Part shown: piece by piece, positions 41,641-64,000 of the stretch
Layout of the letters: every line of letters begins with the position of its first letter
Numbering within the stretch: position 1 is the stretch's first letter
Assembly (NCBI GenBank): GCA_963281255.1
Contig: OY725495.1
Location: forward strand, 4,954,158 to 5,018,157
Direction: 5' to 3'
DNA from: Aphrocallistes beatrix
Lineage: Eukaryota; Porifera; Hexactinellida; Sceptrulophora; Aphrocallistidae
Length of the DNA: 64,000 nucleotides
Program-made: the position numbers and the translations under genes
The notes under the pieces: model-generated
Database searches by the model: none
The model's input: only the letters and a program-made list of their open reading frames with translations
Told to the model about the DNA's origin: nothing

Positions 41641-41771
41641 ACAATGAAATAACTTGAAGCAACATTGGTCATAATTCTCAATAATTTCATTACAGAATGT
41701 ATCTCATACCGTAATGATTGTAGGACTATGGATAAGAACATATAACTTTAAAAAAATATTTATAACTCTGT

Positions 41772-45344: not shown

Positions 45345-45701
45345 CTTTTTAATAAATAAATGAGAATATAGGAATTGAGTGAAAAGAAACAAGTTACTAA
45401 AAACGTGAACTTTCTGCTATTTGTAGCTATCATCAGGTTTGTAGAGTTGTAGGCTGATAATAAAATGGTAGCACCTTTGTGAACTTGTAGGTATGATGAG
45501 ATTGAGAAGTTATATTAATGCTCGTATGTGTAAGGGGTAAGGTGATGGGAGTAAATATGGGTATTGTAAGGAGAAGAAACCCAACTAGGTGTTGCGTAAC
45601 TATGGAGATAGTTAGAGCGGAGGTTGCTAAGAGAGCTATAGGGGTTGCGTAACTATGGAGATAGTTAGAGCGGAGGTTGCTAAGGGAGCAGTAGGGGTGG
45701 T
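45345..45701 (-). repeat. Terminal repeat (pLTR), 3' copy
   Basis: Identical by eye to 50574-50930. It contains one hammerhead ribozyme near its 3' end (45387-45440) and an internal direct repeat of about 46 bp (GGTTGCGTAACTATGGAGAT and following, twice). Confidence 0.9.
45387..45440 (-). ncRNA. Type I hammerhead ribozyme (3' pLTR)
   Basis: On the minus strand: CTGATGA core at 45436-45430; stem II GCTA-CAAA-TAGC; GAA at 45414-45412; stem III AGTT (45411-45408) with AACT (45395-45392); cleavage-site base U at 45391. Stem I pairs AAAC (45440-45437) with GTTT (45390-45387). All invariant core bases are present. Predicted cleavage is between 45391 and 45390. Stem I is open, giving type I topology, as known for metazoan and Penelope-type hammerheads. 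The base of stem II has one bulged A. Confidence 0.82.
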
Positions 45702-45716
45702 GGGAGGGTAGAGATT

Positions 45717-47606
45717 TTAAGGGACGTTGGTATGATCGTAAAAGTTTGCTAAGGTAGCGTTATGGTAGAGGATTGAGTCTGGGTAGAGTTTGGTTAACTT
45801 CTTAGCCCAATCCCTTTGCTTTTGTGTGATGTCGTTGTGGGGGGCGCAGAAGTGTGGGGGGTAGATATAGAGGATTTGCCAACTGATTTTTGGTCTTATA
45901 TGCTTAGCGATGCGGTTGAAGCTTTTGGTATCGCATAGGCAGGAGGGGTGGAGGTTAGTGGAAGCAAGATAGAAATGAAGTCTGTGTCTGGTTGGATAGT
46001 GTAGTAGATAAAGGCAGCGATAGTGTGAGCAGGGGATGACTGGGGTAGGGAGGGAGGTGTTAATTAGAGGGTCATAGGAGGTGCAAAGGTTGCACTGGTA
46101 GGTAGGACACGGGTATACGGAATGGACAGGGTTTGTGTAGGGAGGGTGATATGTGATTTGTGATTTTAGGGGGGATAGTCCTGTCGTTGGGATAAGGAGG
46201 AAGGGTTCCTTGATGAGGGGGGTAAGCTGCTTGATAGTGGGGCGCGTATGGGAGAATTGGTATTTAATGATTGGAAGGCGTGGGGGTGGGTTGGGTTGTC
46301 TTATTTTTGGGAAATAGACTGCGTTTGTAAGGTTTATGATGGTGGACTGATAATCGTGGCCTGAACGTTGTAGAGGGGGGAGGTATTTGCGGATGAGGTG
46401 GTTGAGAGTTTCGGAAGGTTTTGTGCCGATCTGAGAGGCGCGGGAGGCTGAGCCTAAGTAGGCTTTTTGGACTAGTTTGGTAGAAGGGTGGTAGGAGTGT
46501 GGGTGGAGGGGGACCGGTTGGCGGTAGGGTTGGATGGTTGGGGAGAAGGTATGGGTGGTTGGATTATAGATGGCGTCCTGGGTTTCATTAGGTGTTGTGA
46601 GTTTTAGGTTGTAGGGAGATAGTGGGAGGTCGTTAATAGGGTAGGTAGCTGTGGCGTCGTCAAAGTATAGGGTAAGGGTTTCGCCTGGTGGTGGGTGGTA
46701 GTCTTTTAGTAGGTAGGCAGTGGCCATGCGTGCGAGTTCGGGGGCTAGGGTGAGGCCCATCGGAATGCCAAGGTCACCCAGATGGTAGATGGATTTCCCT
46801 TCGGTGATGAAATTATAGTCTAGTAGTTTGGTTAGGAGTTTTAGCTCTTGTTTGAAGGTAGGGTAGTAGTGGGTAAAGGCATCTTTAATTAGGTTGTGTG
46901 GGGTGGAGGGATAGAACTGCTCAATATCGCCTGTATAGAGGGAAGGTGGTGGGCCGTGTTGGCAGAGGTTGTTGATGGTTTGGTAGATATCGGATGTTAG
47001 GAAGGGGCTTGCGTTTATGATGGGGGTGAGAAGAGGTCGTAGGAAATTCGCGCAGAGGCAAGAGATAGAGGCCTTATGGTTTAGGATGGGGCGCACTATG
47101 GGTAGTAGGGTGCTGGGGGTTTGGTTATAGATATAGATTTCTGGATGGGGGGTGGTAGAGGTTATAAATGCCGGCTTATGGGTTTTTACTTTAAAGTAGA
47201 AGGTTGGGGGGCGAGAGTCTGTAGTGTTTGTTTTCATAAAAGGGTCTATCTGGAGTAGGGCTGTAAAGAGATTGTCAAAGGCGACTAGGTAGTCGGCGGG
47301 GTGGACTAGGGTGGCTTTGGATTGGATGTATGCATTGTATAGACCTGTTAATGTGTTGTTTTCTATAATGACGAGTCCGGGGCCTTTGTCGGCTGTGAGG
47401 AGGCTGCACTCGTGTTGCTTTATTTGCCTTTTAAGGCGGGAAAGGAGGCGTTTGAAGATTCTATATGTGTGGGAGTGGGAGTTGGGTATATTAAACCGAG
47501 TTACCGGAGGGGTGTTAGTTGAGAGTTTTAGGAGGTGTGAGAAGGGGGTAATGAAGGGGGCCGGGGATGGTTCTTGGGGAAGTTGAAAGTTGGTACCGTA
47601 TTGCAT
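45717..47606 (-). CDS. Penelope-like reverse transcriptase
   Basis: The frame is open from 47807; 47606 is its first ATG and 45717 the stop, giving 629 residues from that ATG. Numbered from 47807, the Penelope N-terminal motif LLTADKGPGLVII is at about 137-149, FYFKVKTHKP at 203-212 and RPILNHKAS near 239. RT motif A is YTGDIEQFYPS (D294), motif B is GIPMGLTLAPELA (347-359), and the catalytic YFDD is at 381-384. A Cys cluster YPCPTYQCNLC (565-575) is followed by CLYLLHYPTRHRLHFYLAST (598-617). This resembles the linker and a degenerate GIY-YIG start of endonuclease-bearing Penelope elements. The tail is HTNVP. Penelope-type RTs prime at broken or telomeric ends. The lack of an ATG upstream in segment S suggests a spliced or unconventional start. 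Confidence 0.88.
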   Translation of the reverse strand: MQYGTNFQLPQEPSPAPFITPFSHLLKLSTNTPPVTRFNIPNSHSHTYRIFKRLLSRLKRQIKQHECSLLTADKGPGLVIIENNTLTGLYNAYIQSKATLVHPADYLVAFDNLFTALLQIDPFMKTNTTDSRPPTFYFKVKTHKPAFITSTTPHPEIYIYNQTPSTLLPIVRPILNHKASISCLCANFLRPLLTPIINASPFLTSDIYQTINNLCQHGPPPSLYTGDIEQFYPSTPHNLIKDAFTHYYPTFKQELKLLTKLLDYNFITEGKSIYHLGDLGIPMGLTLAPELARMATAYLLKDYHPPPGETLTLYFDDATATYPINDLPLSPYNLKLTTPNETQDAIYNPTTHTFSPTIQPYRQPVPLHPHSYHPSTKLVQKAYLGSASRASQIGTKPSETLNHLIRKYLPPLQRSGHDYQSTIINLTNAVYFPKIRQPNPPPRLPIIKYQFSHTRPTIKQLTPLIKEPFLLIPTTGLSPLKSQITYHPPYTNPVHSVYPCPTYQCNLCTSYDPLINTSLPTPVIPCSHYRCLYLLHYPTRHRLHFYLASTNLHPSCLCDTKSFNRIAKHIRPKISWQILYIYPPHFCAPHNDITQKQRDWAKKLTKLYPDSILYHNATLANFYDHTNVP

Positions 47607-47784
47607 CAGGGCTTGTAGGGTTATAGCGAGGGTTAGTGGGGTGGTAGAAGGGGTGAAAACTGGAGGAGGTTTGTAGGTAAGGTTGGTGGGGATGTCGTGC
47701 GGGGGTTCGATATGCTTTTGGTTGTTGTTAAGGGTTGAGGTTTGGGCGTGGTGGAAAAGGGATTTGGCTTCGGGAGTTTGTAGA

Positions 47785-48052
47785 CATACAGGTCCCCAGT
47801 ATTGCACAGGAGAGGTGATTCACTGTACTCACTGGTGTAGAGGAGGTGCTCTACGTGGACGTGCATCTCTGCACCTTAAGCCCTGTACGATCGTCACGAG
47901 GTGAGCATGGCTCTGGACCAGGTGAATAGGGCACTTAAGCCTTTGCCCTGGTCCATTCAACGTTCACGTAATAAGGACCGACATGCGCATCCGGTTACCA
48001 GAGAAGGAGTTGCCACTGCGAACCCAGCCGTAGCCAGGAAACGAAGAGGTTT
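47785..48052 (-). repeat. Segment S, internal copy: structured leader of the RT ORF
   Basis: This 268-bp segment recurs at 50931-51198 with about three substitutions. It contains self-complementary stretches such as GGACCAGG...CCCTGGTCC and is non-coding except for overlap with the RT frame. Together with 48053-48589, where I recognise nothing, it forms the roughly 780-bp gap between ORF1 and RT. It may be a structured RNA, for example for internal initiation or priming; this is inference. Confidence 0.6.
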
Positions 48053-48589
48053 ATCCCAGTGGTAATCCATCGACCATGTCTCGCACTACTAATGTAGCAC
48101 TAACCGCCATCATTGGAGAACTCATATAGATAACTCCTAGGCACTGGCTGCCCTGTCTAGTAATCATGTCATTGGATACTATAAGTTGTACAGCTACCGC
48201 TCAGGGAGCAAGACCCTTCCGGTAATGGTTCTGTCGAGCCTGTACTACGTCCATCGACATGGTGTCTCGCATTACTCTTTGCATACGCCGAAGCTCTGCA
48301 TACCATCCTGCTAAACACAAATTACTAGTCGGGTGGTTTTTACCATGATTGCCAGATTGGTTGGGGACACCAGAGGGGCGTTCTGGCTGCAGCACCATCT
48401 GCACACTGGGTTTTCGGAATATCCTAGAGTTGGAGCTACGACCCAGCCCAATGCCTTATCGGTCTGATACACCTGAGAATATCTCGGTGCGTAGACCGCT
48501 TGCTCTTACATGGAGACAGTGTTCGCATGAGTGTGAGAGGTAGGTAGATAGGGGGAGGGAGGCGGGAGGGAGGAGAACCTCCGCCTCCC

Positions 48590-50542
48590 TTAGTGAAAAG
48601 GAGTTTCGATTGTGAGGTTTTGGAGGAGCCTGGTGTTAGGGTGGAGGATGAATTCGCGAGCTTGCCAGAGTGATGGGAGGGGAGGCCCATTGTGGGTGCA
48701 TCTGCCCATACGGCATAGTTGGGTTTTAATGGGGGGGCAGTTTTTTGTGGATGAGGAGCATTTGGTGTGGAGGTGGGAGACTTCTGGTTGGGTAGATTTG
48801 CCGCACTTGATGCATAGGTCGTAGACTTTGATTGCTTTGTTAAATTGGCCGTATACAAGGAATTGGTCCTGATCTGAGAGTGGGGTTATAGTGGTTTGGG
48901 AAAATAGAGCTCGTTTAGTGGGTAAAGGAGAGAAGGGGCACGCTATTCGTTCTGTGTGGTTAGGGTTGCCTCCAGTAATATGGCTGAAGATAGTTTCGGT
49001 AATGGTTTGGAGGTCGGGGGGAAGGTCGTTAAGATATTGGTTGACTGGTTTGCCTCGTGTTTGAATAGTGAAGGGATGTGGATACTTTATTTGGGCGGCT
49101 CCTAGTATGGTGGAAATAGTAAGGCAGCGGGTGCAGGGGAGGTTTGCTTGTGGGGTGGGTTGGGAGGTAGGTATGCGTGGGGGGCGTCTGGCCTGGGGGA
49201 GGTGCCGTGCTGGTGCTGCGGCATAAGTGTGAGTAGTTGGGCCAGGGGTGGGTAGCGTGTGTGTAAGGAGCGGAGTGTGCCTTATATAGGTTTGGAGGAG
49301 GGTGGCTAGGAATCGGGTGGCCATGTCTTTGTCAGAGAGGTGAAGCATTCTCTGAATGGTTAGGTACTGAGATGTAGCGAATTGGGGGAGGTTTATGAGG
49401 GGGAGAGGGTCCGAAGAGAATGGGGGCTCAGTAGGAGTAGTGGGGTTTGGGGTAAGGAGGTTGTGGAGGCCGTAGGCCTTTGCTTGTTTTGTGTAGGGAG
49501 TGGGTTGGGTAGTGTGGGCGGTATATTTAACTTCGTTAGGTATGTCGATATTGGAGAGCTCATATGTGTAGGCGATGAGGAGGTTGATTAGGAAAGAGAT
49601 TAGGCTGCGGGGAACCGACCTTAAGATTGCGTCCGTGGACTGGGCGATAGCTAGGACTTGGTGGGAGGGGAGTGTGTCTGTAAGGGGGTCGTACACAAAT
49701 TGGTATTGGGTTGAGGTTAGGATGGTAGAAAGGGCTGAGCTTTCGGGGATGAGTAGGTTGCCTTGTGCTGGTTGGGGGTGTGGGACTGGCTGGGAAGCGT
49801 GGGTCGGGTTTAGTGGGGGTACCGAGGAATACGTGGAATGGAACTTGCGTGGGTGGTGGGGCGGTTTGTTGATTGTATTGGGTAAAGGGGGTTGGGGGGT
49901 TGTGTTTGCGCGTGGAGGTTGGTAGGGGGGGAAGGGAGGTTCTTCGCGTGGAGATTGGTGGCGTGGGATAGGAGTTTCTTGGTGGAAGGGGGGTTGTTGG
50001 AATGGGAGGGGGGTGGGGAGAGTTTGGCAGTCCATAGGGAGGTTATAAAGGATGGGCTGTGGGGGGAAGGGTTCTTGAGAGTTTGGCGACTGTTGGTGGT
50101 CCTGGTAGCTTGAGTGGGAGGATGGGACCTGGTATGGGCGGTTTATAGTTAGGTGTTGGGTAGAAGGGTTTGTGGGAGGTAGTGGGTGAGTGGAGATTTC
50201 CGCGATGGGAGGTGGTGGTTTAGTATGAGGTGGGTGTATGGAGGTGGGTTTGTTAGAGGAATTGGGCGTAGGGGGTTTGGGAGGAGATGAGGTGGGAGAG
50301 TGGTAAGAAGTTTGTGGAGAGTGGGAGGAGGGTTGAGTGGATGAAGGAGATGATGGAGATGATGAGGATGATTGGGAGTTTGGTGATGAGGATTGGGTTG
50401 GTGAGGAGGGTTGTTGAGGGGTTGGTTGATTGATTGCTATGCGGGAGGCAGAGCGGGTTAAAGGTTTTGCATTATAAAGGGAGTGGAATACTGAGGATAC
50501 CGATCGGGGTTTGCGACGGGAGTTCTTAGGTGCGTTTGACAT
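48590..50542 (-). CDS. Penelope-like element ORF1 (Pro-rich, Cys-motif protein)
   Basis: From ATG 50542 the product is 650 residues beginning MSNAPKNSRRKPRSV. The frame is open 40 codons further upstream, into the terminal repeat, but the internal ATG is preferred because the upstream part lies over the leader conserved in the 905-bp repeat. The first 300 residues are Ser/Pro/Gln/Thr-rich and probably disordered. The second half is more ordered. It has PCTRC, then LCIKCGKS...HLHTKC and further Cys/His near the end (LCRMGRCTHNG), which suggest zinc-binding knuckles for nucleic-acid binding as in other retroelement ORF1/Gag proteins. I do not recognise a specific family. It lies just downstream of the hammerhead in the 5' terminal repeat. 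Confidence 0.72.
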   Translation of the reverse strand: MSNAPKNSRRKPRSVSSVFHSLYNAKPLTRSASRIAINQPTPQQPSSPTQSSSPNSQSSSSSPSSPSSTQPSSHSPQTSYHSPTSSPPKPPTPNSSNKPTSIHPPHTKPPPPIAEISTHPLPPTNPSTQHLTINRPYQVPSSHSSYQDHQQSPNSQEPFPPQPILYNLPMDCQTLPTPLPFQQPPFHQETPIPRHQSPREEPPFPPYQPPRANTTPQPPLPNTINKPPHHPRKFHSTYSSVPPLNPTHASQPVPHPQPAQGNLLIPESSALSTILTSTQYQFVYDPLTDTLPSHQVLAIAQSTDAILRSVPRSLISFLINLLIAYTYELSNIDIPNEVKYTAHTTQPTPYTKQAKAYGLHNLLTPNPTTPTEPPFSSDPLPLINLPQFATSQYLTIQRMLHLSDKDMATRFLATLLQTYIRHTPLLTHTLPTPGPTTHTYAAAPARHLPQARRPPRIPTSQPTPQANLPCTRCLTISTILGAAQIKYPHPFTIQTRGKPVNQYLNDLPPDLQTITETIFSHITGGNPNHTERIACPFSPLPTKRALFSQTTITPLSDQDQFLVYGQFNKAIKVYDLCIKCGKSTQPEVSHLHTKCSSSTKNCPPIKTQLCRMGRCTHNGPPLPSLWQAREFILHPNTRLLQNLTIETPFH

Positions 50543-50573
50543 AGTCGATTTAGTAACAAGTACTATAGGTAGG

Positions 50574-50930
50574 CTTTTTAATAAATAAATGAGAATATAG
50601 GAATTGAGTGAAAAGAAACAAGTTACTAAAAACGTGAACTTTCTGCTATTTGTAGCTATCATCAGGTTTGTAGAGTTGTAGGCTGATAATAAAATGGTAG
50701 CACCTTTGTGAACTTGTAGGTATGATGAGATTGAGAAGTTATATTAATGCTCGTATGTGTAAGGGGTAAGGTGATGGGAGTAAATATGGGTATTGTAAGG
50801 AGAAGAAACCCAACTAGGTGTTGCGTAACTATGGAGATAGTTAGAGCGGAGGTTGCTAAGAGAGCTATAGGGGTTGCGTAACTATGGAGATAGTTAGAGC
50901 GGAGGTTGCTAAGGGAGCAGTAGGGGTGGT
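50574..50930 (-). repeat. Terminal repeat (pLTR), 5' copy
   Basis: Same sequence as 45345-45701. Joined at 50930/50931 directly to segment S, with the RT ORF missing between them. ORF1 starts 32 bases downstream on the minus strand. Confidence 0.9.
50616..50669 (-). ncRNA. Type I hammerhead ribozyme (5' pLTR)
   Basis: Exact counterpart of 45387-45440 at +5,229: CTGATGA core, GCTA/TAGC stem II, GAA, AGTT/AACT stem III, AAAC/GTTT stem I. Cleavage is predicted between 50620 and 50619, about 80 bases upstream of the ORF1 ATG, so it would define the 5' end of the element RNA. Confidence 0.82.
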
Positions 50931-51198
50931 CATACAGGTCCCCAGTATTGCACAGGAGAGGTGATTCACTGTACTCACTGGTGTAGAGGAGGTGCTCTAC
51001 GTGGACGTGCATCTCTGCACCTTAAGCCCTGTACGATCGTCACGAGGTGAGCATGGCTCTGAACCAGGTGAATAGGGCACTTAAGCCTTTGCCCTGGTCC
51101 ATTCAACGTTCACGTAATAAGGACCGACATGCGCATCCGGTTACCAGAGGAGGAGTTGCCCCTGCGAACCCAGCCGTAGCCAGGAAACGAAGAGGTTT
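50931..51198 (-). repeat. Segment S, upstream copy fused to the pLTR
   Basis: Matches 47785-48052 with three visible differences (GGACCAGG to GAACCAGG, GAGAAGG to GAGGAGG, GCCACTG to GCCCCTG). It is joined directly to the terminal repeat without the RT ORF and ends exactly where the 905-bp array begins. The S plus pLTR unit is therefore an internally deleted derivative of the element. Confidence 0.85.
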
Positions 51199-54100
51199 TT
51201 TAATAAGAGTAAATGAGTAGTACAGGAATTGAATGAAAAGAATAGTTACTAAGTGAATAACTTTCTGGCTTATATAGCCTTCGTCAGTTCTGAAGGTGAG
51301 AATGGTTGATAGAAATTTGAAAGGTTGCCGCGAATTGTTAAGTGCTGTTGTTAAGGGAATGTAGATATGACGATGACAAGGAATGGAAGTTTTTGCAAGT
51401 AATTTAAATGGAAACGGTGGACTGTGGAGTGTTTTAAGGAGAGACCTTATGTTGCTAAGGAGCGAAACTGTGGAATTTTGGCGAAATTAATGGAAACGGG
51501 TTGAAAGTTGACCTTTTGGAGAAATTTATGGACGATGGGGAGTTAATTTAGGCATTTTATAGCGGAACGATGGGAACGGAGACGGAACGGTGCTTTTGAG
51601 GTTGCAACTGTTGGAAAGGGGAGCGGAATGGAGACTTTTTGGAACGAAACTGTTGGAATGGGAGCGGAGTCGGTGCTTTTGATTGGAGATCGTGGAAACG
51701 GGAGCGGAGTAGGTGCTTTTGAGTTGGAAATGTAGGAACGGGAGGCGAATCGAAGCCTTTTGATAGGGAACGGTTGAAAGGCGAGTAAGTTGGGCATTTT
51801 ATGGCGAGTTGAAGGGGTCCGGTGCCGAGTTGTAGGCTTTTTCGGTTGTTAGGTTGTGGTTGCGGAAGGGCGTAAGCAGGGCTTTTTGGAGTGGAGCGAG
51901 TGGAACGGAAGAGGACTGTGGAGGCTTTTAGGATTGGTAGATGTGGTTGGGGTGGGCGGTTGTTAGGCATTTTTGGGTTGGAATGTTGGTATGGCGAAGG
52001 GGAGACGGAGGCTTTTTGGGACGAGGCAGTAAGCCTCGAAAAAAGGGAACGATTGGTGTTTTTGCGGCGAAGTTGATATAGTAACAAGTAGGTTGGTAGG
52101 TATTTTAATAAGAGTAAATGAGTAGTACAGGAATTGAATGAAAAGAATAGTTACTAAGTGAATAACTTTCTGGCTTATATAGCCTTCGTCAGTTCTGAAG
52201 GTGAGAATGGTTGATAGAAATTTGAAAGGTTGCCGCGAATTGTTAAGTGCTGTTGTTAAGGGAATGTAGATATGACGATGACAAGGAATGGAAGTTTTTG
52301 CAAGTAATTTAAATGGAAACGGTGGACTGTGGAGTGTTTTAAGGAGAGACCTTATGTTGCTAAGGAGCGAAACTGTGGAATTTTGGCGAAATTAATGGAA
52401 ACGGGTTGAAAGTTGACCTTTTGGAGAAATTTATGGACGATGGGGAGTTAATTTAGGCATTTTATAGCGGAACGATGGGAACGGAGACGGAACGGTGCTT
52501 TTGAGGTTGCAACTGTTGGAAAGGGGAGCGGAATGGAGACTTTTTGGAACGAAACTGTTGGAATGGGAGCGGAGTCGGTGCTTTTGATTGGAGATCGTGG
52601 AAACGGGAGCGGAGTAGGTGCTTTTGAGTTGGAAATGTAGGAACGGGAGGCGAATCGAAGCCTTTTGATAGGGAACGGTTGAAAGGCGAGTAAGTTGGGC
52701 ATTTTATGGCGAGTTGAAGGGGTCCGGTGCCGAGTTGTAGGCTTTTTCGGTTGTTAGGTTGTGGTTGCGGAAGGGCGTAAGCAGGGCTTTTTGGAGTGGA
52801 GCGAGTGGAACGGAAGAGGACTGTGGAGGCTTTTAGGATTGGTAGATGTGGTTGGGGTGGGCGGTTGTTAGGCATTTTTGGGTTGGAATGTTGGTATGGC
52901 GAAGGGGAGACGGAGGCTTTTTGGGACGAGGCAGTAAGCCTCGAAAAAAGGGAACGATTGGTGTTTTTGCGGCGAAGTTGATATAGTAACAAGTAGGTTG
53001 GTAGGTATTTTAATAAGAGTAAATGAGTAGTACAGGAATTGAATGAAAAGAATAGTTACTAAGTGAATAACTTTCTGGCTTATATAGCCTTCGTCAGTTC
53101 TGAAGGTGAGAATGGTTGATAGAAATTTGAAAGGTTGCCGCGAATTGTTAAGTGCTGTTGTTAAGGGAATGTAGATATGACGATGACAAGGAATGGAAGT
53201 TTTTGCAAGTAATTTAAATGGAAACGGTGGACTGTGGAGTGTTTTAAGGAGAGACCTTATGTTGCTAAGGAGCGAAACTGTGGAATTTTGGCGAAATTAA
53301 TGGAAACGGGTTGAAAGTTGACCTTTTGGAGAAATTTATGGACGATGGGGAGTTAATTTAGGCATTTTATAGCGGAACGATGGGAACGGAGACGGAACGG
53401 TGCTTTTGAGGTTGCAACTGTTGGAAAGGGGAGCGGAATGGAGACTTTTTGGAACGAAACTGTTGGAATGGGAGCGGAGTCGGTGCTTTTGATTGGAGAT
53501 CGTGGAAACGGGAGCGGAGTAGGTGCTTTTGAGTTGGAAATGTAGGAACGGGAGGCGAATCGAAGCCTTTTGATAGGGAACGGTTGAAAGGCGAGTAAGT
53601 TGGGCATTTTATGGCGAGTTGAAGGGGTCCGGTGCCGAGTTGTAGGCTTTTTCGGTTGTTAGGTTGTGGTTGCGGAAGGGCGTAAGCAGGGCTTTTTGGA
53701 GTGGAGCGAGTGGAACGGAAGAGGACTGTGGAGGCTTTTAGGATTGGTAGATGTGGTTGGGGTGGGCGGTTGTTAGGCATTTTTGGGTTGGAATGTTGGT
53801 ATGGCGAAGGGGAGACGGAGGCTTTTTGGGACGAGGCAGTAAGCCTCGAAAAAAGGGAACGATTGGTGTTTTTGCGGCGAAGTTGATATAGTAACAAGTA
53901 GGTTGGTAGGTATTTTAATAAGAGTAAATGAGTAGTACAGGAATTGAATGAAAAGAATAGTTACTAAGTGAATAACTTTCTGGCTTATATAGCCTTCGTC
54001 AGTTCTGAAGGTGAGAATGGTTGATAGAAATTTGAAAGGTTGCCGCGAATTGTTAAGTGCTGTTGTTAAGGGAATGTAGATATGACGATGACAAGGAATG

Positions 54101-57100
54101 GAAGTTTTTGCAAGTAATTTAAATGGAAACGGTGGACTGTGGAGTGTTTTAAGGAGAGACCTTATGTTGCTAAGGAGCGAAACTGTGGAATTTTGGCGAA
54201 ATTAATGGAAACGGGTTGAAAGTTGACCTTTTGGAGAAATTTATGGACGATGGGGAGTTAATTTAGGCATTTTATAGCGGAACGATGGGAACGGAGACGG
54301 AACGGTGCTTTTGAGGTTGCAACTGTTGGAAAGGGGAGCGGAATGGAGACTTTTTGGAACGAAACTGTTGGAATGGGAGCGGAGTCGGTGCTTTTGATTG
54401 GAGATCGTGGAAACGGGAGCGGAGTAGGTGCTTTTGAGTTGGAAATGTAGGAACGGGAGGCGAATCGAAGCCTTTTGATAGGGAACGGTTGAAAGGCGAG
54501 TAAGTTGGGCATTTTATGGCGAGTTGAAGGGGTCCGGTGCCGAGTTGTAGGCTTTTTCGGTTGTTAGGTTGTGGTTGCGGAAGGGCGTAAGCAGGGCTTT
54601 TTGGAGTGGAGCGAGTGGAACGGAAGAGGACTGTGGAGGCTTTTAGGATTGGTAGATGTGGTTGGGGTGGGCGGTTGTTAGGCATTTTTGGGTTGGAATG
54701 TTGGTATGGCGAAGGGGAGACGGAGGCTTTTTGGGACGAGGCAGTAAGCCTCGAAAAAAGGGAACGATTGGTGTTTTTGCGGCGAAGTTGATATAGTAAC
54801 AAGTAGGTTGGTAGGTATTTTAATAAGAGTAAATGAGTAGTACAGGAATTGAATGAAAAGAATAGTTACTAAGTGAATAACTTTCTGGCTTATATAGCCT
54901 TCGTCAGTTCTGAAGGTGAGAATGGTTGATAGAAATTTGAAAGGTTGCCGCGAATTGTTAAGTGCTGTTGTTAAGGGAATGTAGATATGACGATGACAAG
55001 GAATGGAAGTTTTTGCAAGTAATTTAAATGGAAACGGTGGACTGTGGAGTGTTTTAAGGAGAGACCTTATGTTGCTAAGGAGCGAAACTGTGGAATTTTG
55101 GCGAAATTAATGGAAACGGGTTGAAAGTTGACCTTTTGGAGAAATTTATGGACGATGGGGAGTTAATTTAGGCATTTTATAGCGGAACGATGGGAACGGA
55201 GACGGAACGGTGCTTTTGAGGTTGCAACTGTTGGAAAGGGGAGCGGAATGGAGACTTTTTGGAACGAAACTGTTGGAATGGGAGCGGAGTCGGTGCTTTT
55301 GATTGGAGATCGTGGAAACGGGAGCGGAGTAGGTGCTTTTGAGTTGGAAATGTAGGAACGGGAGGCGAATCGAAGCCTTTTGATAGGGAACGGTTGAAAG
55401 GCGAGTAAGTTGGGCATTTTATGGCGAGTTGAAGGGGTCCGGTGCCGAGTTGTAGGCTTTTTCGGTTGTTAGGTTGTGGTTGCGGAAGGGCGTAAGCAGG
55501 GCTTTTTGGAGTGGAGCGAGTGGAACGGAAGAGGACTGTGGAGGCTTTTAGGATTGGTAGATGTGGTTGGGGTGGGCGGTTGTTAGGCATTTTTGGGTTG
55601 GAATGTTGGTATGGCGAAGGGGAGACGGAGGCTTTTTGGGACGAGGCAGTAAGCCTCGAAAAAAGGGAACGATTGGTGTTTTTGCGGCGAAGTTGATATA
55701 GTAACAAGTAGGTTGGTAGGTATTTTAATAAGAGTAAATGAGTAGTACAGGAATTGAATGAAAAGAATAGTTACTAAGTGAATAACTTTCTGGCTTATAT
55801 AGCCTTCGTCAGTTCTGAAGGTGAGAATGGTTGATAGAAATTTGAAAGGTTGCCGCGAATTGTTAAGTGCTGTTGTTAAGGGAATGTAGATATGACGATG
55901 ACAAGGAATGGAAGTTTTTGCAAGTAATTTAAATGGAAACGGTGGACTGTGGAGTGTTTTAAGGAGAGACCTTATGTTGCTAAGGAGCGAAACTGTGGAA
56001 TTTTGGCGAAATTAATGGAAACGGGTTGAAAGTTGACCTTTTGGAGAAATTTATGGACGATGGGGAGTTAATTTAGGCATTTTATAGCGGAACGATGGGA
56101 ACGGAGACGGAACGGTGCTTTTGAGGTTGCAACTGTTGGAAAGGGGAGCGGAATGGAGACTTTTTGGAACGAAACTGTTGGAATGGGAGCGGAGTCGGTG
56201 CTTTTGATTGGAGATCGTGGAAACGGGAGCGGAGTAGGTGCTTTTGAGTTGGAAATGTAGGAACGGGAGGCGAATCGAAGCCTTTTGATAGGGAACGGTT
56301 GAAAGGCGAGTAAGTTGGGCATTTTATGGCGAGTTGAAGGGGTCCGGTGCCGAGTTGTAGGCTTTTTCGGTTGTTAGGTTGTGGTTGCGGAAGGGCGTAA
56401 GCAGGGCTTTTTGGAGTGGAGCGAGTGGAACGGAAGAGGACTGTGGAGGCTTTTAGGATTGGTAGATGTGGTTGGGGTGGGCGGTTGTTAGGCATTTTTG
56501 GGTTGGAATGTTGGTATGGCGAAGGGGAGACGGAGGCTTTTTGGGACGAGGCAGTAAGCCTCGAAAAAAGGGAACGATTGGTGTTTTTGCGGCGAAGTTG
56601 ATATAGTAACAAGTAGGTTGGTAGGTATTTTAATAAGAGTAAATGAGTAGTACAGGAATTGAATGAAAAGAATAGTTACTAAGTGAATAACTTTCTGGCT
56701 TATATAGCCTTCGTCAGTTCTGAAGGTGAGAATGGTTGATAGAAATTTGAAAGGTTGCCGCGAATTGTTAAGTGCTGTTGTTAAGGGAATGTAGATATGA
56801 CGATGACAAGGAATGGAAGTTTTTGCAAGTAATTTAAATGGAAACGGTGGACTGTGGAGTGTTTTAAGGAGAGACCTTATGTTGCTAAGGAGCGAAACTG
56901 TGGAATTTTGGCGAAATTAATGGAAACGGGTTGAAAGTTGACCTTTTGGAGAAATTTATGGACGATGGGGAGTTAATTTAGGCATTTTATAGCGGAACGA
57001 TGGGAACGGAGACGGAACGGTGCTTTTGAGGTTGCAACTGTTGGAAAGGGGAGCGGAATGGAGACTTTTTGGAACGAAACTGTTGGAATGGGAGCGGAGT

Positions 57101-60100
57101 CGGTGCTTTTGATTGGAGATCGTGGAAACGGGAGCGGAGTAGGTGCTTTTGAGTTGGAAATGTAGGAACGGGAGGCGAATCGAAGCCTTTTGATAGGGAA
57201 CGGTTGAAAGGCGAGTAAGTTGGGCATTTTATGGCGAGTTGAAGGGGTCCGGTGCCGAGTTGTAGGCTTTTTCGGTTGTTAGGTTGTGGTTGCGGAAGGG
57301 CGTAAGCAGGGCTTTTTGGAGTGGAGCGAGTGGAACGGAAGAGGACTGTGGAGGCTTTTAGGATTGGTAGATGTGGTTGGGGTGGGCGGTTGTTAGGCAT
57401 TTTTGGGTTGGAATGTTGGTATGGCGAAGGGGAGACGGAGGCTTTTTGGGACGAGGCAGTAAGCCTCGAAAAAAGGGAACGATTGGTGTTTTTGCGGCGA
57501 AGTTGATATAGTAACAAGTAGGTTGGTAGGTATTTTAATAAGAGTAAATGAGTAGTACAGGAATTGAATGAAAAGAATAGTTACTAAGTGAATAACTTTC
57601 TGGCTTATATAGCCTTCGTCAGTTCTGAAGGTGAGAATGGTTGATAGAAATTTGAAAGGTTGCCGCGAATTGTTAAGTGCTGTTGTTAAGGGAATGTAGA
57701 TATGACGATGACAAGGAATGGAAGTTTTTGCAAGTAATTTAAATGGAAACGGTGGACTGTGGAGTGTTTTAAGGAGAGACCTTATGTTGCTAAGGAGCGA
57801 AACTGTGGAATTTTGGCGAAATTAATGGAAACGGGTTGAAAGTTGACCTTTTGGAGAAATTTATGGACGATGGGGAGTTAATTTAGGCATTTTATAGCGG
57901 AACGATGGGAACGGAGACGGAACGGTGCTTTTGAGGTTGCAACTGTTGGAAAGGGGAGCGGAATGGAGACTTTTTGGAACGAAACTGTTGGAATGGGAGC
58001 GGAGTCGGTGCTTTTGATTGGAGATCGTGGAAACGGGAGCGGAGTAGGTGCTTTTGAGTTGGAAATGTAGGAACGGGAGGCGAATCGAAGCCTTTTGATA
58101 GGGAACGGTTGAAAGGCGAGTAAGTTGGGCATTTTATGGCGAGTTGAAGGGGTCCGGTGCCGAGTTGTAGGCTTTTTCGGTTGTTAGGTTGTGGTTGCGG
58201 AAGGGCGTAAGCAGGGCTTTTTGGAGTGGAGCGAGTGGAACGGAAGAGGACTGTGGAGGCTTTTAGGATTGGTAGATGTGGTTGGGGTGGGCGGTTGTTA
58301 GGCATTTTTGGGTTGGAATGTTGGTATGGCGAAGGGGAGACGGAGGCTTTTTGGGACGAGGCAGTAAGCCTCGAAAAAAGGGAACGATTGGTGTTTTTGC
58401 GGCGAAGTTGATATAGTAACAAGTAGGTTGGTAGGTATTTTAATAAGAGTAAATGAGTAGTACAGGAATTGAATGAAAAGAATAGTTACTAAGTGAATAA
58501 CTTTCTGGCTTATATAGCCTTCGTCAGTTCTGAAGGTGAGAATGGTTGATAGAAATTTGAAAGGTTGCCGCGAATTGTTAAGTGCTGTTGTTAAGGGAAT
58601 GTAGATATGACGATGACAAGGAATGGAAGTTTTTGCAAGTAATTTAAATGGAAACGGTGGACTGTGGAGTGTTTTAAGGAGAGACCTTATGTTGCTAAGG
58701 AGCGAAACTGTGGAATTTTGGCGAAATTAATGGAAACGGGTTGAAAGTTGACCTTTTGGAGAAATTTATGGACGATGGGGAGTTAATTTAGGCATTTTAT
58801 AGCGGAACGATGGGAACGGAGACGGAACGGTGCTTTTGAGGTTGCAACTGTTGGAAAGGGGAGCGGAATGGAGACTTTTTGGAACGAAACTGTTGGAATG
58901 GGAGCGGAGTCGGTGCTTTTGATTGGAGATCGTGGAAACGGGAGCGGAGTAGGTGCTTTTGAGTTGGAAATGTAGGAACGGGAGGCGAATCGAAGCCTTT
59001 TGATAGGGAACGGTTGAAAGGCGAGTAAGTTGGGCATTTTATGGCGAGTTGAAGGGGTCCGGTGCCGAGTTGTAGGCTTTTTCGGTTGTTAGGTTGTGGT
59101 TGCGGAAGGGCGTAAGCAGGGCTTTTTGGAGTGGAGCGAGTGGAACGGAAGAGGACTGTGGAGGCTTTTAGGATTGGTAGATGTGGTTGGGGTGGGCGGT
59201 TGTTAGGCATTTTTGGGTTGGAATGTTGGTATGGCGAAGGGGAGACGGAGGCTTTTTGGGACGAGGCAGTAAGCCTCGAAAAAAGGGAACGATTGGTGTT
59301 TTTGCGGCGAAGTTGATATAGTAACAAGTAGGTTGGTAGGTATTTTAATAAGAGTAAATGAGTAGTACAGGAATTGAATGAAAAGAATAGTTACTAAGTG
59401 AATAACTTTCTGGCTTATATAGCCTTCGTCAGTTCTGAAGGTGAGAATGGTTGATAGAAATTTGAAAGGTTGCCGCGAATTGTTAAGTGCTGTTGTTAAG
59501 GGAATGTAGATATGACGATGACAAGGAATGGAAGTTTTTGCAAGTAATTTAAATGGAAACGGTGGACTGTGGAGTGTTTTAAGGAGAGACCTTATGTTGC
59601 TAAGGAGCGAAACTGTGGAATTTTGGCGAAATTAATGGAAACGGGTTGAAAGTTGACCTTTTGGAGAAATTTATGGACGATGGGGAGTTAATTTAGGCAT
59701 TTTATAGCGGAACGATGGGAACGGAGACGGAACGGTGCTTTTGAGGTTGCAACTGTTGGAAAGGGGAGCGGAATGGAGACTTTTTGGAACGAAACTGTTG
59801 GAATGGGAGCGGAGTCGGTGCTTTTGATTGGAGATCGTGGAAACGGGAGCGGAGTAGGTGCTTTTGAGTTGGAAATGTAGGAACGGGAGGCGAATCGAAG
59901 CCTTTTGATAGGGAACGGTTGAAAGGCGAGTAAGTTGGGCATTTTATGGCGAGTTGAAGGGGTCCGGTGCCGAGTTGTAGGCTTTTTCGGTTGTTAGGTT
60001 GTGGTTGCGGAAGGGCGTAAGCAGGGCTTTTTGGAGTGGAGCGAGTGGAACGGAAGAGGACTGTGGAGGCTTTTAGGATTGGTAGATGTGGTTGGGGTGG

Positions 60101-63100
60101 GCGGTTGTTAGGCATTTTTGGGTTGGAATGTTGGTATGGCGAAGGGGAGACGGAGGCTTTTTGGGACGAGGCAGTAAGCCTCGAAAAAAGGGAACGATTG
60201 GTGTTTTTGCGGCGAAGTTGATATAGTAACAAGTAGGTTGGTAGGTATTTTAATAAGAGTAAATGAGTAGTACAGGAATTGAATGAAAAGAATAGTTACT
60301 AAGTGAATAACTTTCTGGCTTATATAGCCTTCGTCAGTTCTGAAGGTGAGAATGGTTGATAGAAATTTGAAAGGTTGCCGCGAATTGTTAAGTGCTGTTG
60401 TTAAGGGAATGTAGATATGACGATGACAAGGAATGGAAGTTTTTGCAAGTAATTTAAATGGAAACGGTGGACTGTGGAGTGTTTTAAGGAGAGACCTTAT
60501 GTTGCTAAGGAGCGAAACTGTGGAATTTTGGCGAAATTAATGGAAACGGGTTGAAAGTTGACCTTTTGGAGAAATTTATGGACGATGGGGAGTTAATTTA
60601 GGCATTTTATAGCGGAACGATGGGAACGGAGACGGAACGGTGCTTTTGAGGTTGCAACTGTTGGAAAGGGGAGCGGAATGGAGACTTTTTGGAACGAAAC
60701 TGTTGGAATGGGAGCGGAGTCGGTGCTTTTGATTGGAGATCGTGGAAACGGGAGCGGAGTAGGTGCTTTTGAGTTGGAAATGTAGGAACGGGAGGCGAAT
60801 CGAAGCCTTTTGATAGGGAACGGTTGAAAGGCGAGTAAGTTGGGCATTTTATGGCGAGTTGAAGGGGTCCGGTGCCGAGTTGTAGGCTTTTTCGGTTGTT
60901 AGGTTGTGGTTGCGGAAGGGCGTAAGCAGGGCTTTTTGGAGTGGAGCGAGTGGAACGGAAGAGGACTGTGGAGGCTTTTAGGATTGGTAGATGTGGTTGG
61001 GGTGGGCGGTTGTTAGGCATTTTTGGGTTGGAATGTTGGTATGGCGAAGGGGAGACGGAGGCTTTTTGGGACGAGGCAGTAAGCCTCGAAAAAAGGGAAC
61101 GATTGGTGTTTTTGCGGCGAAGTTGATATAGTAACAAGTAGGTTGGTAGGTATTTTAATAAGAGTAAATGAGTAGTACAGGAATTGAATGAAAAGAATAG
61201 TTACTAAGTGAATAACTTTCTGGCTTATATAGCCTTCGTCAGTTCTGAAGGTGAGAATGGTTGATAGAAATTTGAAAGGTTGCCGCGAATTGTTAAGTGC
61301 TGTTGTTAAGGGAATGTAGATATGACGATGACAAGGAATGGAAGTTTTTGCAAGTAATTTAAATGGAAACGGTGGACTGTGGAGTGTTTTAAGGAGAGAC
61401 CTTATGTTGCTAAGGAGCGAAACTGTGGAATTTTGGCGAAATTAATGGAAACGGGTTGAAAGTTGACCTTTTGGAGAAATTTATGGACGATGGGGAGTTA
61501 ATTTAGGCATTTTATAGCGGAACGATGGGAACGGAGACGGAACGGTGCTTTTGAGGTTGCAACTGTTGGAAAGGGGAGCGGAATGGAGACTTTTTGGAAC
61601 GAAACTGTTGGAATGGGAGCGGAGTCGGTGCTTTTGATTGGAGATCGTGGAAACGGGAGCGGAGTAGGTGCTTTTGAGTTGGAAATGTAGGAACGGGAGG
61701 CGAATCGAAGCCTTTTGATAGGGAACGGTTGAAAGGCGAGTAAGTTGGGCATTTTATGGCGAGTTGAAGGGGTCCGGTGCCGAGTTGTAGGCTTTTTCGG
61801 TTGTTAGGTTGTGGTTGCGGAAGGGCGTAAGCAGGGCTTTTTGGAGTGGAGCGAGTGGAACGGAAGAGGACTGTGGAGGCTTTTAGGATTGGTAGATGTG
61901 GTTGGGGTGGGCGGTTGTTAGGCATTTTTGGGTTGGAATGTTGGTATGGCGAAGGGGAGACGGAGGCTTTTTGGGACGAGGCAGTAAGCCTCGAAAAAAG
62001 GGAACGATTGGTGTTTTTGCGGCGAAGTTGATATAGTAACAAGTAGGTTGGTAGGTATTTTAATAAGAGTAAATGAGTAGTACAGGAATTGAATGAAAAG
62101 AATAGTTACTAAGTGAATAACTTTCTGGCTTATATAGCCTTCGTCAGTTCTGAAGGTGAGAATGGTTGATAGAAATTTGAAAGGTTGCCGCGAATTGTTA
62201 AGTGCTGTTGTTAAGGGAATGTAGATATGACGATGACAAGGAATGGAAGTTTTTGCAAGTAATTTAAATGGAAACGGTGGACTGTGGAGTGTTTTAAGGA
62301 GAGACCTTATGTTGCTAAGGAGCGAAACTGTGGAATTTTGGCGAAATTAATGGAAACGGGTTGAAAGTTGACCTTTTGGAGAAATTTATGGACGATGGGG
62401 AGTTAATTTAGGCATTTTATAGCGGAACGATGGGAACGGAGACGGAACGGTGCTTTTGAGGTTGCAACTGTTGGAAAGGGGAGCGGAATGGAGACTTTTT
62501 GGAACGAAACTGTTGGAATGGGAGCGGAGTCGGTGCTTTTGATTGGAGATCGTGGAAACGGGAGCGGAGTAGGTGCTTTTGAGTTGGAAATGTAGGAACG
62601 GGAGGCGAATCGAAGCCTTTTGATAGGGAACGGTTGAAAGGCGAGTAAGTTGGGCATTTTATGGCGAGTTGAAGGGGTCCGGTGCCGAGTTGTAGGCTTT
62701 TTCGGTTGTTAGGTTGTGGTTGCGGAAGGGCGTAAGCAGGGCTTTTTGGAGTGGAGCGAGTGGAACGGAAGAGGACTGTGGAGGCTTTTAGGATTGGTAG
62801 ATGTGGTTGGGGTGGGCGGTTGTTAGGCATTTTTGGGTTGGAATGTTGGTATGGCGAAGGGGAGACGGAGGCTTTTTGGGACGAGGCAGTAAGCCTCGAA
62901 AAAAGGGAACGATTGGTGTTTTTGCGGCGAAGTTGATATAGTAACAAGTAGGTTGGTAGGTATTTTAATAAGAGTAAATGAGTAGTACAGGAATTGAATG
63001 AAAAGAATAGTTACTAAGTGAATAACTTTCTGGCTTATATAGCCTTCGTCAGTTCTGAAGGTGAGAATGGTTGATAGAAATTTGAAAGGTTGCCGCGAAT

Positions 63101-64000
63101 TGTTAAGTGCTGTTGTTAAGGGAATGTAGATATGACGATGACAAGGAATGGAAGTTTTTGCAAGTAATTTAAATGGAAACGGTGGACTGTGGAGTGTTTT
63201 AAGGAGAGACCTTATGTTGCTAAGGAGCGAAACTGTGGAATTTTGGCGAAATTAATGGAAACGGGTTGAAAGTTGACCTTTTGGAGAAATTTATGGACGA
63301 TGGGGAGTTAATTTAGGCATTTTATAGCGGAACGATGGGAACGGAGACGGAACGGTGCTTTTGAGGTTGCAACTGTTGGAAAGGGGAGCGGAATGGAGAC
63401 TTTTTGGAACGAAACTGTTGGAATGGGAGCGGAGTCGGTGCTTTTGATTGGAGATCGTGGAAACGGGAGCGGAGTAGGTGCTTTTGAGTTGGAAATGTAG
63501 GAACGGGAGGCGAATCGAAGCCTTTTGATAGGGAACGGTTGAAAGGCGAGTAAGTTGGGCATTTTATGGCGAGTTGAAGGGGTCCGGTGCCGAGTTGTAG
63601 GCTTTTTCGGTTGTTAGGTTGTGGTTGCGGAAGGGCGTAAGCAGGGCTTTTTGGAGTGGAGCGAGTGGAACGGAAGAGGACTGTGGAGGCTTTTAGGATT
63701 GGTAGATGTGGTTGGGGTGGGCGGTTGTTAGGCATTTTTGGGTTGGAATGTTGGTATGGCGAAGGGGAGACGGAGGCTTTTTGGGACGAGGCAGTAAGCC
63801 TCGAAAAAAGGGAACGATTGGTGTTTTTGCGGCGAAGTTGATATAGTAACAAGTAGGTTGGTAGGTATTTTAATAAGAGTAAATGAGTAGTACAGGAATT
63901 GAATGAAAAGAATAGTTACTAAGTGAATAACTTTCTGGCTTATATAGCCTTCGTCAGTTCTGAAGGTGAGAATGGTTGATAGAAATTTGAAAGGTTGCCG
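51198..64000 (-). repeat. 905-bp hammerhead-bearing satellite array (14+ copies, runs off the window)
   Basis: The monomer starts TTTTAATAAGAGTAAATGAG and repeats at exactly 905-bp steps (51198, 52103, 53008 ...) to the end of the window. I see no differences between copies. The first 100 bp resemble the Penelope terminal repeat (TTTTAATAA...AAATGAG, AGGAATTGA-TGAAAAG, GTTACTAA, CTTTCTG). The last 30 bp (TAGTAACAAGTA...GGTAGG) resemble the leader before ORF1. The middle (about 350-830 of the unit) is made of roughly 40-bp subrepeats around GGAACGGGAGCGGA and TGCTTTTGA. No convincing protein is encoded: the 176-codon minus-strand frame lacks an ATG at its start. Each copy holds one hammerhead. 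Confidence 0.95.
51239..51291 (-). ncRNA. Type I hammerhead ribozyme, repeated in every 905-bp unit
   Basis: Minus strand: stem I AGAA (51291-51288) and TTCT (51242-51239); core CTGACGA (51287-51281); stem II GGCT (51279-51276) with AGCC (51270-51267) and a 5-base loop; GAA (51265-51263); stem III AGTTA (51262-51258) with TAACT (51248-51244) and a 9-base loop; cleavage-site base A at 51243. All invariant core positions fit CTGANGA...GAAA...UH. One A-A mismatch lies at the base of stem II. Copies occur every 905 bases, fifteen within the window, the last at 63909-63961. Cleavage would cut a multimer transcript into 905-nt monomers. Stem III is short, so efficient cleavage may need a dimer, as in other metazoan satellite hammerheads. 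Confidence 0.85.

Follow-up and report, generated by a model that had tools for sequence, protein, structure and literature searches.

A hammerhead-bearing 905-bp satellite next to a Penelope-like element at a contig end of the sponge Aphrocallistes beatrix

Type I hammerhead ribozymes (HHRs) are recognised by a CUGANGA ... GAAA core, a residue H17 other than G and three helices, with stem I open. Minimal type I forms in the pseudo-LTRs (pLTRs) of Penelope-like elements (PLEs) were reportedly described by Cervera and de la Pena in 2014. Among the mobile elements of chromosome ends, Terminons are grouped with the endonuclease-deficient telomeric PLEs, and Drosophila HeT-A/TART are telomeric retrotransposons of the non-LTR (LINE) type, in which we know of no hammerheads. 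The Poseidon PLE of Anolis carries minimal type I hammerheads in its pLTRs (PMC11167929). Passages of PMC3846280 place endonuclease-deficient telomeric PLEs in bdelloid rotifers and others, and complex repeats of Chironomus are among those mentioned in passages of PMC10844300. Hammerhead satellites, Penelope elements and noncanonical chromosome ends are usually studied separately; here we describe a contig end at which all three stand in a single physical series.

The window, a stretch of 64,000 nucleotides analysed as a whole, has its right edge at the end of a 5.02-Mb contig. From inside outward it contains a telomere-type array (41774 to 45349), a PLE (45346 to 50930) and a terminal array of 905-bp units, the features of the last being as follows:

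51196 to 51206, plus strand: array start, a six-T run followed by AATAA, homologous to the site of the PLE 3′ end (45346 to 45355)
51198 to 64000, unstranded: 14.15 terminal tandem copies of the 905-bp unit, running to the contig end
51239 to 51291, minus strand: type I hammerhead, copy 1 of 15, seen by pattern, structural scan, model R1 and covariation; predicted cut 51243/51242
51552 to 52017, plus strand: telomere-type body of the 905-bp unit; its G-rich strand has 11 GC[N]TTTT motifs, separated by gaps of 39 to 45 bp and one of 83 bp

The first-pass annotation had proposed at least 14 identical monomers, and this was borne out: 11,898 positions (51198 to 63095) compared at a lag of 905 gave no mismatch, and the 14.15 copies are a lower bound, with the contig (C9, 5,018,157 bp) stopping exactly at window position 64000. 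Each unit consists of a hammerhead-bearing head and the body, and encodes no reverse transcriptase (RT). The 11 motifs of the body compare with 1.4 ± 1.1 in dinucleotide shuffles, and none was found on its opposite strand. The annotation had also called the family unlike those known, a view we could not uphold: the head is related to the pLTR of the neighbouring PLE (73% over ~100 bp), and the body is made of telomere-type repeats. Dispersed 70 to 75% copies of the body lie on contigs C7, C10, C13, C14 and C17; these were dropped as candidates for further arrays, two of them (L033 and L035) sitting between inverted repeats, and we read them as probable pieces caught in transposon-like elements.

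The same annotation had read a complete minus-strand type I hammerhead into every monomer. Its core and architecture stood, in 15 copies at steps of +905 bp (the last at 63909 to 63961): the letters CUGANGA and GAAA and a non-G H17 are all intact, the three helices are present, and H17 of the first copy is the A at 51243, in agreement with 51243/51242 as the predicted cut site. Completeness did not stand, as the base of helix II is an A.A mismatch. The 100.5-Mb assembly contains the exact 43-mer of the core 15 times, always within the array, and not once on the other strand (reversed control, 0). A structural scan with a score of at least 11 picked out 23 motifs in the window and the loci scanned with it. 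The window accounts for 17 of them, and of the six rows from loci one, L012, repeats a window copy. Five mononucleotide shuffles (282 kb, one strand) averaged 0 motifs. Covariance model R1, built from four sequences that include the 905-bp unit, scored each array copy at 60.1 bits; across 22 sources it matched the window and 9 loci and left 12 loci without a match, and among 46 further sources it matched L087 alone. Eleven distinct rows, of which one was truncated, were aligned by fitting to a model containing the 905-bp unit; in this alignment standard pairs filled 85% of the pair cells, against 26 to 46% with the partners slid, and helix covariation scored 0.624, against 0.159 ± 0.036 in shuffles and at most 0.095 in the slid controls. 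A further covariance model, of the leave-out kind, was set aside because the aligner had misplaced the helices.

As its own test the annotation had named an Rfam hammerhead covariance match, and on that test it formally fails: no Rfam family reached its gathering threshold in the window, a permissive scan of positions 50401 to 52400 (E ≤ 10) returned no hammerhead, and RF00163 gave three subthreshold matches in the whole genome, none in the array, with subthreshold matches also in 11 of 14 control genomes. The motif is nevertheless recovered by R1 together with its relatives and is supported by the covariation. Judged from sequence, each 905-bp monomer carries real type I hammerhead architecture, and the motif appears to resemble the minimal Penelope-type HHR.

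Inside the array and the PLE lies a region of the kind found at other contig ends:

36720 to 41773, unstranded: subtelomeric block, common to the C7-right and C8-left ends
41774 to 45349, plus strand: telomere-type satellite array of the ordinary kind, 22.5 copies with a period of 159 bp

Each of the 19 large contigs carries, at both of its ends (38 in all), tandem satellites whose G-rich strand faces outward and which contain the motif GC[A/C]TTTT. Inspection of these 38 ends showed no simple repeat; (TTAGGG)4 is missing from the 19 large contigs and turned up only on the small contig C26. The 905 array has every mark of these telomeric satellites (it ends a contig, turns its G-rich strand outward and has GC[N]TTTT phased at ~40 bp), and the assembly places there what is probably the physical terminus of a chromosome. 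The 159-bp array, with 4 mismatches in 3,417 positions at that lag, belongs to the family of the other-end satellites; the main matches of the block are 81 to 90% identical, one being 71%, and the order of block and then satellite recurs at both of the other ends read further inward. A 905-bp unit or a model-detected HHR was found in the last 1.2 kb of only 1 of the 38 ends, so telomeres in this genome do not depend on the hammerhead. The word telomere is absent from passages of PMC10282587 and PMC10280926. As to other genes of this genome, its PSME4 has a match in the human protein, and mitochondrial COX1, with 11 in-frame TGA codons, can be read through under code 5.

The PLE between the two arrays has the following parts:

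45346 to 50930, minus strand: two-ORF PLE, with HHR-bearing pLTRs and an RT-like ORF2
45346 to 45701, minus strand: pLTR2, its 3′ end abutting the telomere-type array, with the T run at 45346 to 45349 common to both
45387 to 45440, minus strand: hammerhead in pLTR2 (pattern, scan, model R1)
45717 to 47819, minus strand: ORF2, a 700-codon stop-to-stop open frame; putative RT with DKG and YFDD, degenerate GIY-YIG-like C terminus
45963 to 45971, minus strand: YLA in place of the YIG motif, the catalytic glycine lost
47785 to 48540, unstranded: spacer between the ORFs, right edge set by eye
48590 to 50743, minus strand: ORF1, a 717-codon stop-to-stop open frame
50574 to 50930, minus strand: pLTR1, identical to pLTR2 over 357 bp
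50616 to 50669, minus strand: hammerhead in pLTR1 (pattern, scan, model R1 at 56.1 bits)
50931 to 51198, plus strand: partial spacer copy of 268 bp, copying 47785 to 48052 with 3 mismatches and adjoining pLTR1

The insertion comprises one full unit of 5,229 bp, about 356 bp more and the piece of spacer, and its pLTRs are direct. ORF1 has no Pfam match at E ≤ 1, and ORF2 matches RVT_1 below the curated cutoff (E = 9.5e-5) and no PDB sequence at E ≤ 1; the N-terminal DKG motif of ORF2 is what we take to be a PLE hallmark. At least 65 ORF2-related stretches occur in the genome. An intact GIY-YIG endonuclease is lacking: YLA, YLS or YLT stands at the YIG site in the subfamily copies of the window, C3 and four places on C6, and YIG or YVG at the same site in 12 other loci, some near-identical to each other. 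The Pfam GIY-YIG family matches neither ORF2 nor the families with intact YIG or YVG. In another PLE, a glycine-to-alanine change at this site abolishes nuclease activity (PMC11167929). The copy at 50931 to 51198 is the sole other place in the genome where the spacer was found; a broken dispersed element was ruled out, the segment being the PLE's own spacer and matched nowhere else, and splicing is disfavoured, no GT-AG boundary being seen in the letters inspected by eye. We prefer an origin that would involve template switching or a defective upstream repeat.

The PLE and the 905 array both begin at a homologous site, a T run followed by AATAA, which lies 40 to 45 nt 3′ of the HHR cut. In other PLE families, four copies from three loci end 35 to 42 nt past the cut at a TA run, by distances counted by eye and with L021 lacking the TA run and L026 cut off. 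The 3′ end of the PLE points inward, as expected for priming from a chromosome 3′ end. On balance we lean towards reading the 905-bp unit as a noncoding, PLE-derived hammerhead telomeric repeat that reverse transcription seeded at the chromosome end and that was later amplified. The unit would join a pLTR-type module, providing the hammerhead and the start of reverse transcription, to telomere-type repeats of ~40 bp. An endonuclease-deficient PLE RT would prime on the exposed G-strand 3′ end and begin at the fixed A-rich site 3′ of the hammerhead cut, with PLE RNA or a related noncoding RNA of the 905-nt type as its template. One such event may have placed the PLE onto the old telomere-type array and another may have seeded the 905-bp unit outside the PLE, the array afterwards expanding and being kept uniform, and the hammerhead may process minus-strand multimers. 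The array, the motif with its covariation, the terminal position and polarity within the assembly, the PLE-like element, its lost nuclease glycine and the common start site are observed; terminal priming, use of the enzyme of the neighbouring PLE and RNA processing we infer.

Several observations weigh against a PLE-derived telomeric repeat. PLE RT stretches as a whole are neither enriched at the ends nor oriented to them (28 of 49 clusters; KS P = 0.35; the clusters come from 65 listed stretches, with 64 of 247 first-look candidates scored), the nuclease-deficient relatives on C3 and C6 are interstitial, and R1 finds no HHR in the C6 relatives examined. The unit or an HHR is seen at a single end, HHR-free arrays are equally homogeneous, the HHR fold is not the one of minimum energy, and the ends are those of an assembly. 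Relative dating is weak, with 0 differences in 357 positions between the pLTRs, 3 in 268 in the spacer copy (perhaps an older divergence) and 0 in 11,898 in the array; with the pLTRs identical, we do not hold the array to be far younger than the PLE.

The chances are about even that the array is maintained at the DNA level, the unit having been captured once at the end, by break repair or a single retro-insertion, and multiplied by recombination with the hammerhead as a passenger; rolling-circle copying of DNA circles and unequal exchange, as in telomerase-free (ALT-like) telomeres, are examples of such a route. The absence of differences over 11.9 kb fits a recent DNA amplification, and satellites without a detected HHR are as homogeneous, the lag identity over the last 1.2 kb rounding to 1.00 in 23 of the 37 other ends. 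Units are common to several ends, C8-left and C14-left looking identical, and the TERT RBD and TERT C-terminal Pfam families had no match in searches run without a positive control. The homogeneity, which the annotation had taken as a hint of circles, is common to HHR-free arrays and is therefore no evidence for RNA circles. A purely DNA-level route leaves unexplained, however, why the array and the adjacent PLE insertion should start at one homologous site and why a PLE-type HHR module is united with telomere repeats. DNA amplification is compatible with prior seeding by reverse transcription.

We hold it possible, though less likely than not, that the hammerhead is a decayed and inactive fossil of a PLE pLTR carried along in a telomeric satellite. 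The minimum-energy fold of the isolated motif (−10.2 kcal/mol) differs from the HHR fold, which reaches −4.2 kcal/mol with a stem III of 5 bp and −6.8 with one of 7 bp, and stem I has a pair probability of 0.00 in contexts of 120 to 400 nt; the thermodynamic fold was discarded as support for the HHR, the HHR fold not being the minimum. This competing fold, the A.A at the base of helix II, the Rfam result and the altered HHR cores elsewhere in the genome (L018 and L087) are in line with decay. The intact core letters argue against it, as does stem I, whose AGAA/UUCU differs from the AAAC/GUUU of the neighbouring pLTR by fully compensatory changes.

With type I architecture in every monomer, a minus-strand transcript of several units might in principle be cleaved to 905-nt RNAs, and a retrozyme-like circular RNA is possible. 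We think it unlikely that the array itself arose by rolling-circle reverse transcription, a circularised 905-nt RNA being copied for many laps by the PLE RT from the chromosome 3′ end. Given the position of the start site, a cleaved linear RNA would yield only 40 to 45 nt of cDNA, so many laps would call for a circular RNA or a multimer left uncut; the PLE insertion, too, is longer than one full unit, by about 356 bp, and animal retrozyme RNAs are partly circular according to passages of PMC7229834. Uncut tandem transcripts would serve equally, however, array homogeneity is not diagnostic, and work on the Anolis PLE found unprocessed RNA to be the main template and the HHR not to be required in vitro (PMC11167929). 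The fuller scenario, with hammerheads both cutting and closing telomere-like circles of 905 nt and a nuclease-dead Penelope RT copying them from the chromosome 3′ end, strikes us as improbable. That the array is internal or miscounted and the contig merely broken there is very unlikely: the contig does stop inside the array, but the polarity and motif family are the same at 38 of 38 ends, and immediately inside lies the subtelomeric block also present at the two other ends read.

The 905 series hints that ribozyme-bearing mobile RNA can help build chromosome ends. If growth were RNA templated, genomic hammerheads would gain a concrete role, and a mobile enzyme related to telomerase would be seen to contribute complex telomeric satellites; regardless of this, here is an animal genome with, apparently, complex satellites at every end of its 19 large contigs.

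Like Poseidon PLEs, the window PLE has direct pLTRs and an HHR upstream of the apparent internal start of reverse transcription, together with a putative RT and a GIY-YIG-like C terminus; unlike in them, its nuclease glycine is gone and it lies within a telomere-type region, and the 905-bp unit is without an RT. With bdelloid telomeric PLEs it would share attachment to a chromosome end and additions one outside the other. Passages of PMC3846280 describe telomeric repeats added there onto a truncated 5′ end, whereas here simple repeats are missing from the 38 ends and an HHR-bearing satellite forms the end. The label retrozyme-like, given in the first-pass annotation, fits in part: as in metazoan non-LTR retrozymes and the newt and schistosome satellites, the units are tandem and noncoding with one type I HHR each, but passages of PMC7229834 and PMC6155905 give retrozymes 150 to 450 bp and many copies, in contrast with 905 bp, one terminal locus and an HHR that is judged by eye to be minimal and to lack the canonical loop contacts. 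The composite repeats of Meloidogyne, which belong to the complex telomeric repeats without telomerase, are likewise G-rich, oriented end units in place of a canonical repeat; passages of PMC10844300 put them mostly at one end and offer no evidence that transposable elements are linked to them, whereas here such units occupy both ends of all 19 large contigs, one end having a PLE and an HHR unit. As in Drosophila HeT-A/TART, the end would be elongated by reverse transcription of a mobile-element RNA.

The window forms the right end of contig C9 and closes with a tandem array that runs from 51198 to its last base with a period of 905 bp (14.15 copies); at lag 905, we found 0 mismatches over the 11,898 positions compared. 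On the minus strand, each unit contains CTGACGA, stem-loop II, GAAA, stem-loop III and A^TTCT, and a closing AGAA upstream gives a type I hammerhead (HHR) architecture with stem I open and a predicted cut site at 51243/51242. The first-pass annotation had described the satellite as a retrozyme-like array of self-cleaving hammerhead units. Its letters and coordinates, including the period, core and cut, were correct, but it overlooked an A.A at the basal pair of helix II and a standing below the Rfam threshold: no Rfam family reached threshold in the window, and a scan of 50401–52400 gave no hammerhead even at E ≤ 10. The exact 43-mer core has 15 matches in the 100.5-Mb assembly, all within the array. 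Related motifs are found in the inward neighbor, a Penelope-like element (PLE) with pseudo-LTRs (pLTRs):

45346–50930, minus strand: PLE, in the order pLTR1, ORF1, spacer, ORF2, pLTR2
minus strand, within the PLE: ORF1, 717-codon open frame
minus strand, within the PLE: ORF2, 700-codon open frame with a reverse-transcriptase core, DKG and YFDD motifs
50616–50669: HHR copy in a direct repeat flanking the reverse-transcriptase element
45387–45440: HHR copy in a direct repeat flanking the reverse-transcriptase element

Elsewhere in the genome, the HHR lies downstream of the ORF at several related reverse-transcriptase loci. From four sequences (the 905-bp unit, the window pLTR and two from locus L016), we built a covariance model and searched 22 sources with it. 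Beyond its own sequences, it matched L015, L018, L020, L021, L025, L026 and L038 as well as truncated HHRs at the margins of L016 and L017, and gave no match at E ≤ 1 in 12 loci; among 46 further sources, L087 was the sole match. Across the 11 distinct rows aligned, standard pairs filled 85.4% of the pair cells versus 26–46% in slid controls, 11 of 13 pairs showed two-sided changes, and the covariation score was 0.624 versus 0.159 ± 0.036 in shuffles. As the rows had been aligned by fitting to the model, these figures lean towards the structure. Stem I is nonetheless clearly compensated across relatives (AGAA/UUCU, AAAC/GUUU, UGUA/UACA and GAAC/GUUC). TATA occurs in stem-loop II of 7 of the 10 distinct full-length HHRs, and the 905-bp cut site matches an initiator-like CTATTCT; ribozyme and core promoter may overlap.

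The predicted folding of the isolated motif and its contexts is evidence against hammerhead activity. The preferred fold of the 53-nt motif pairs the core GAAA with the stem I strand at −10.2 kcal/mol, versus −4.2 for the hammerhead fold or −6.8 with a 7-bp stem III, and the stem I pair probability was 0.00 in 120–400-nt contexts. In the Anolis PLE, hammerhead cleavage requires the element's protein, and the hammerhead is dispensable for in vitro insertion (PMC11167929).

Read outward, the PLE starts at GTAAGCCTTTTTAATAAATAAATG and the array at GAGGTTTTTTAATAAGAGTAAATG; both starts fall at the same homologous place, a T-run and then AATAA, 40–45 nt 3′ of the cut in the RNA sense. In other PLE families, four copies at three loci stop 35–42 nt past the cut at a TA run, as counted by eye, with L021 having no TA run and the L026 sequence incomplete. 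We read the common start as a probable fixed internal start of reverse transcription, with a geometry resembling that of the Anolis Poseidon element PAc, where reverse transcription also starts 3′ of the cut. With a start ~45 nt past the cut, cleaved linear RNA would template only ~45 nt. The PLE copy spans one 5,229-bp unit and about 356 bp more, so neither it nor a long array could come from such RNA; the template would have to be a circle or a multimer left uncut.

We take the element to be Penelope-like from these ORF2 motifs and from its HHR-bearing pLTRs. ORF2 matched RVT_1 at E 9.5e-5, below the cut-off; its C-terminus, recognised neither by Pfam nor by PDB sequences, shows Cys pairs, YIG or YVG, and an R..H pattern in relatives. 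The subfamily copies compared (the window, C3 and four places on C6) have YLA, YLS or YLT at the YIG position; 12 other loci, some near-identical to one another, have YIG or YVG. In PAc, replacement of this glycine by alanine abolishes DNA cleavage (PMC11167929). Nuclease-deficient PLEs probably prime from exposed chromosome ends (PMC3846280). As such priming predicts, the 3′ end of the window PLE points inward on the old telomere-type array.

Next to pLTR1, 50931–51198 repeats part of the spacer (47785–48540), which matched nowhere else in the genome; this partial copy points to template switching or to an upstream repeat that was defective. On contig C3 (L087 1191–1800), an element related to the window PLE is arranged in tandem: its RT end is followed by a pLTR, an HHR with an altered core and the next ORF1, and it has the same TTATTAAAAAGCC stretch. 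On C9 at 0.72 Mb, a decayed PLE reverse-transcriptase piece lies between two inverted hammerhead-like motifs whose sequence type differs from the others, L039 1959 (−) and 2967 (+); one is the best RF00163 match (21.6 bits, below cut-off).

Besides C9-right, we examined 1.2 kb from each of the remaining 37 large-contig ends (19 contigs) and, among the small contigs, the left ends of C5, C21 and C22. Tandem satellites were present at 38/38 large-contig ends, C9-right included, as was the C-strand motif AAAA[G/T]GC; the three small-contig ends had no such satellite. GC skew was negative at left and positive at right ends, placing the G-rich strand outward. Periods were mostly 116–201 bp, with 43 bp at C9-left and C14-right and 905 bp at C9-right; the satellites at all 38 ends are based on a ~40-bp repeat, in units of 43–201 bp plus the 905. 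(TTAGGG)4 was absent from the 19 large contigs, its four matches all lying in a degenerate CCCTAA array of the 14-kb contig C26 (L083 1480–2080), either a relic or contamination. The telomeres of this animal genome appear to be non-canonical. A telomerase search with two domain families gave no match and, having no positive control, says little.

A satellite 21-mer had 629 matches; among those listed, one was inside C1 and the rest lay either in the window's 159-bp array (41774–45349) or no more than ~8 kb from the ends C7-right and C8-left. At C8-left and C7-right, a repeat block on the inner side of the arrays covers 4,343 and 3,974 of 5,774 window bases (36000–41773), with main matches of 81–90% identity and one of 71%. 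Together, these place the chromosome's ordinary telomere-type array at 41774–45349 and everything beyond outside it. The subtelomeric block (window 36720–41773, L090, L091) is common to at least three chromosome ends and holds 24-, 33- and 34-bp minisatellites. Further inward, a single 1801-aa open frame at 6021–11426, in 64–68% GC surroundings, matches the proteasome activator PSME4 (human chains, E 1.8e-187).

The G-rich strand of the 905-bp unit holds 11 GC[N]TTTT motifs (N optional) versus 1.4 ± 1.1 in dinucleotide shuffles and 0 on the opposite strand, spaced 39–45 bp with one gap of 83. The body aligns to the 159-bp satellite (z 8.4) and the 43-bp unit (z 4.5), and the head (HHR and ~45 nt downstream) is 73% identical to the neighboring pLTR over ~100 bp; the unit thus joins a PLE-type HHR module to telomere-type repeats. 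Elements with GGAAAATTCGTCGCA-type inverted repeats (L033 2664–3317, L035 2938–3573) hold a 70–75% copy of the body, and another inverted-repeat element (L038 2525–3780; arms 32 nt, 97% complementary) a copy of HHR and body. Blast matches on C1 (second place), C6, C11 and C14 span similar parts of the unit.

Over 357 bp, the two pLTRs show no difference; mismatches number 3/268 in the spacer copy, perhaps through pre-existing divergence, 0/11,898 in the 905-bp array and 4/3,417 in the 159-bp array. Both PLE and 905-bp array are therefore recent, and divergence does not give their order; the outer position suggests that the array is the later.

The balance tips slightly towards a PLE-derived hammerhead telomeric repeat as the best-supported reading: terminal reverse transcription would have seeded the repeat at the chromosome end, and the 905-bp repeat would have been amplified afterwards. 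Amplification by DNA recombination stands at even chances, about as likely as that reading and compatible with retro-seeding. The bold case, direct rolling-circle reverse transcription of the array, gains no proof of an RNA route from uniformity, since 23 of the 37 other ends, with no HHR detected, also had lag identities rounding to 1.00. The lack of PLE enrichment at contig ends and the detection of an HHR at 1/38 ends tell against a general role. The open-access literature searched gave no earlier account of a chromosome end made up of an HHR satellite; hammerheads in PLEs, retrozymes, telomeric PLEs and complex telomeric satellites are each known separately.
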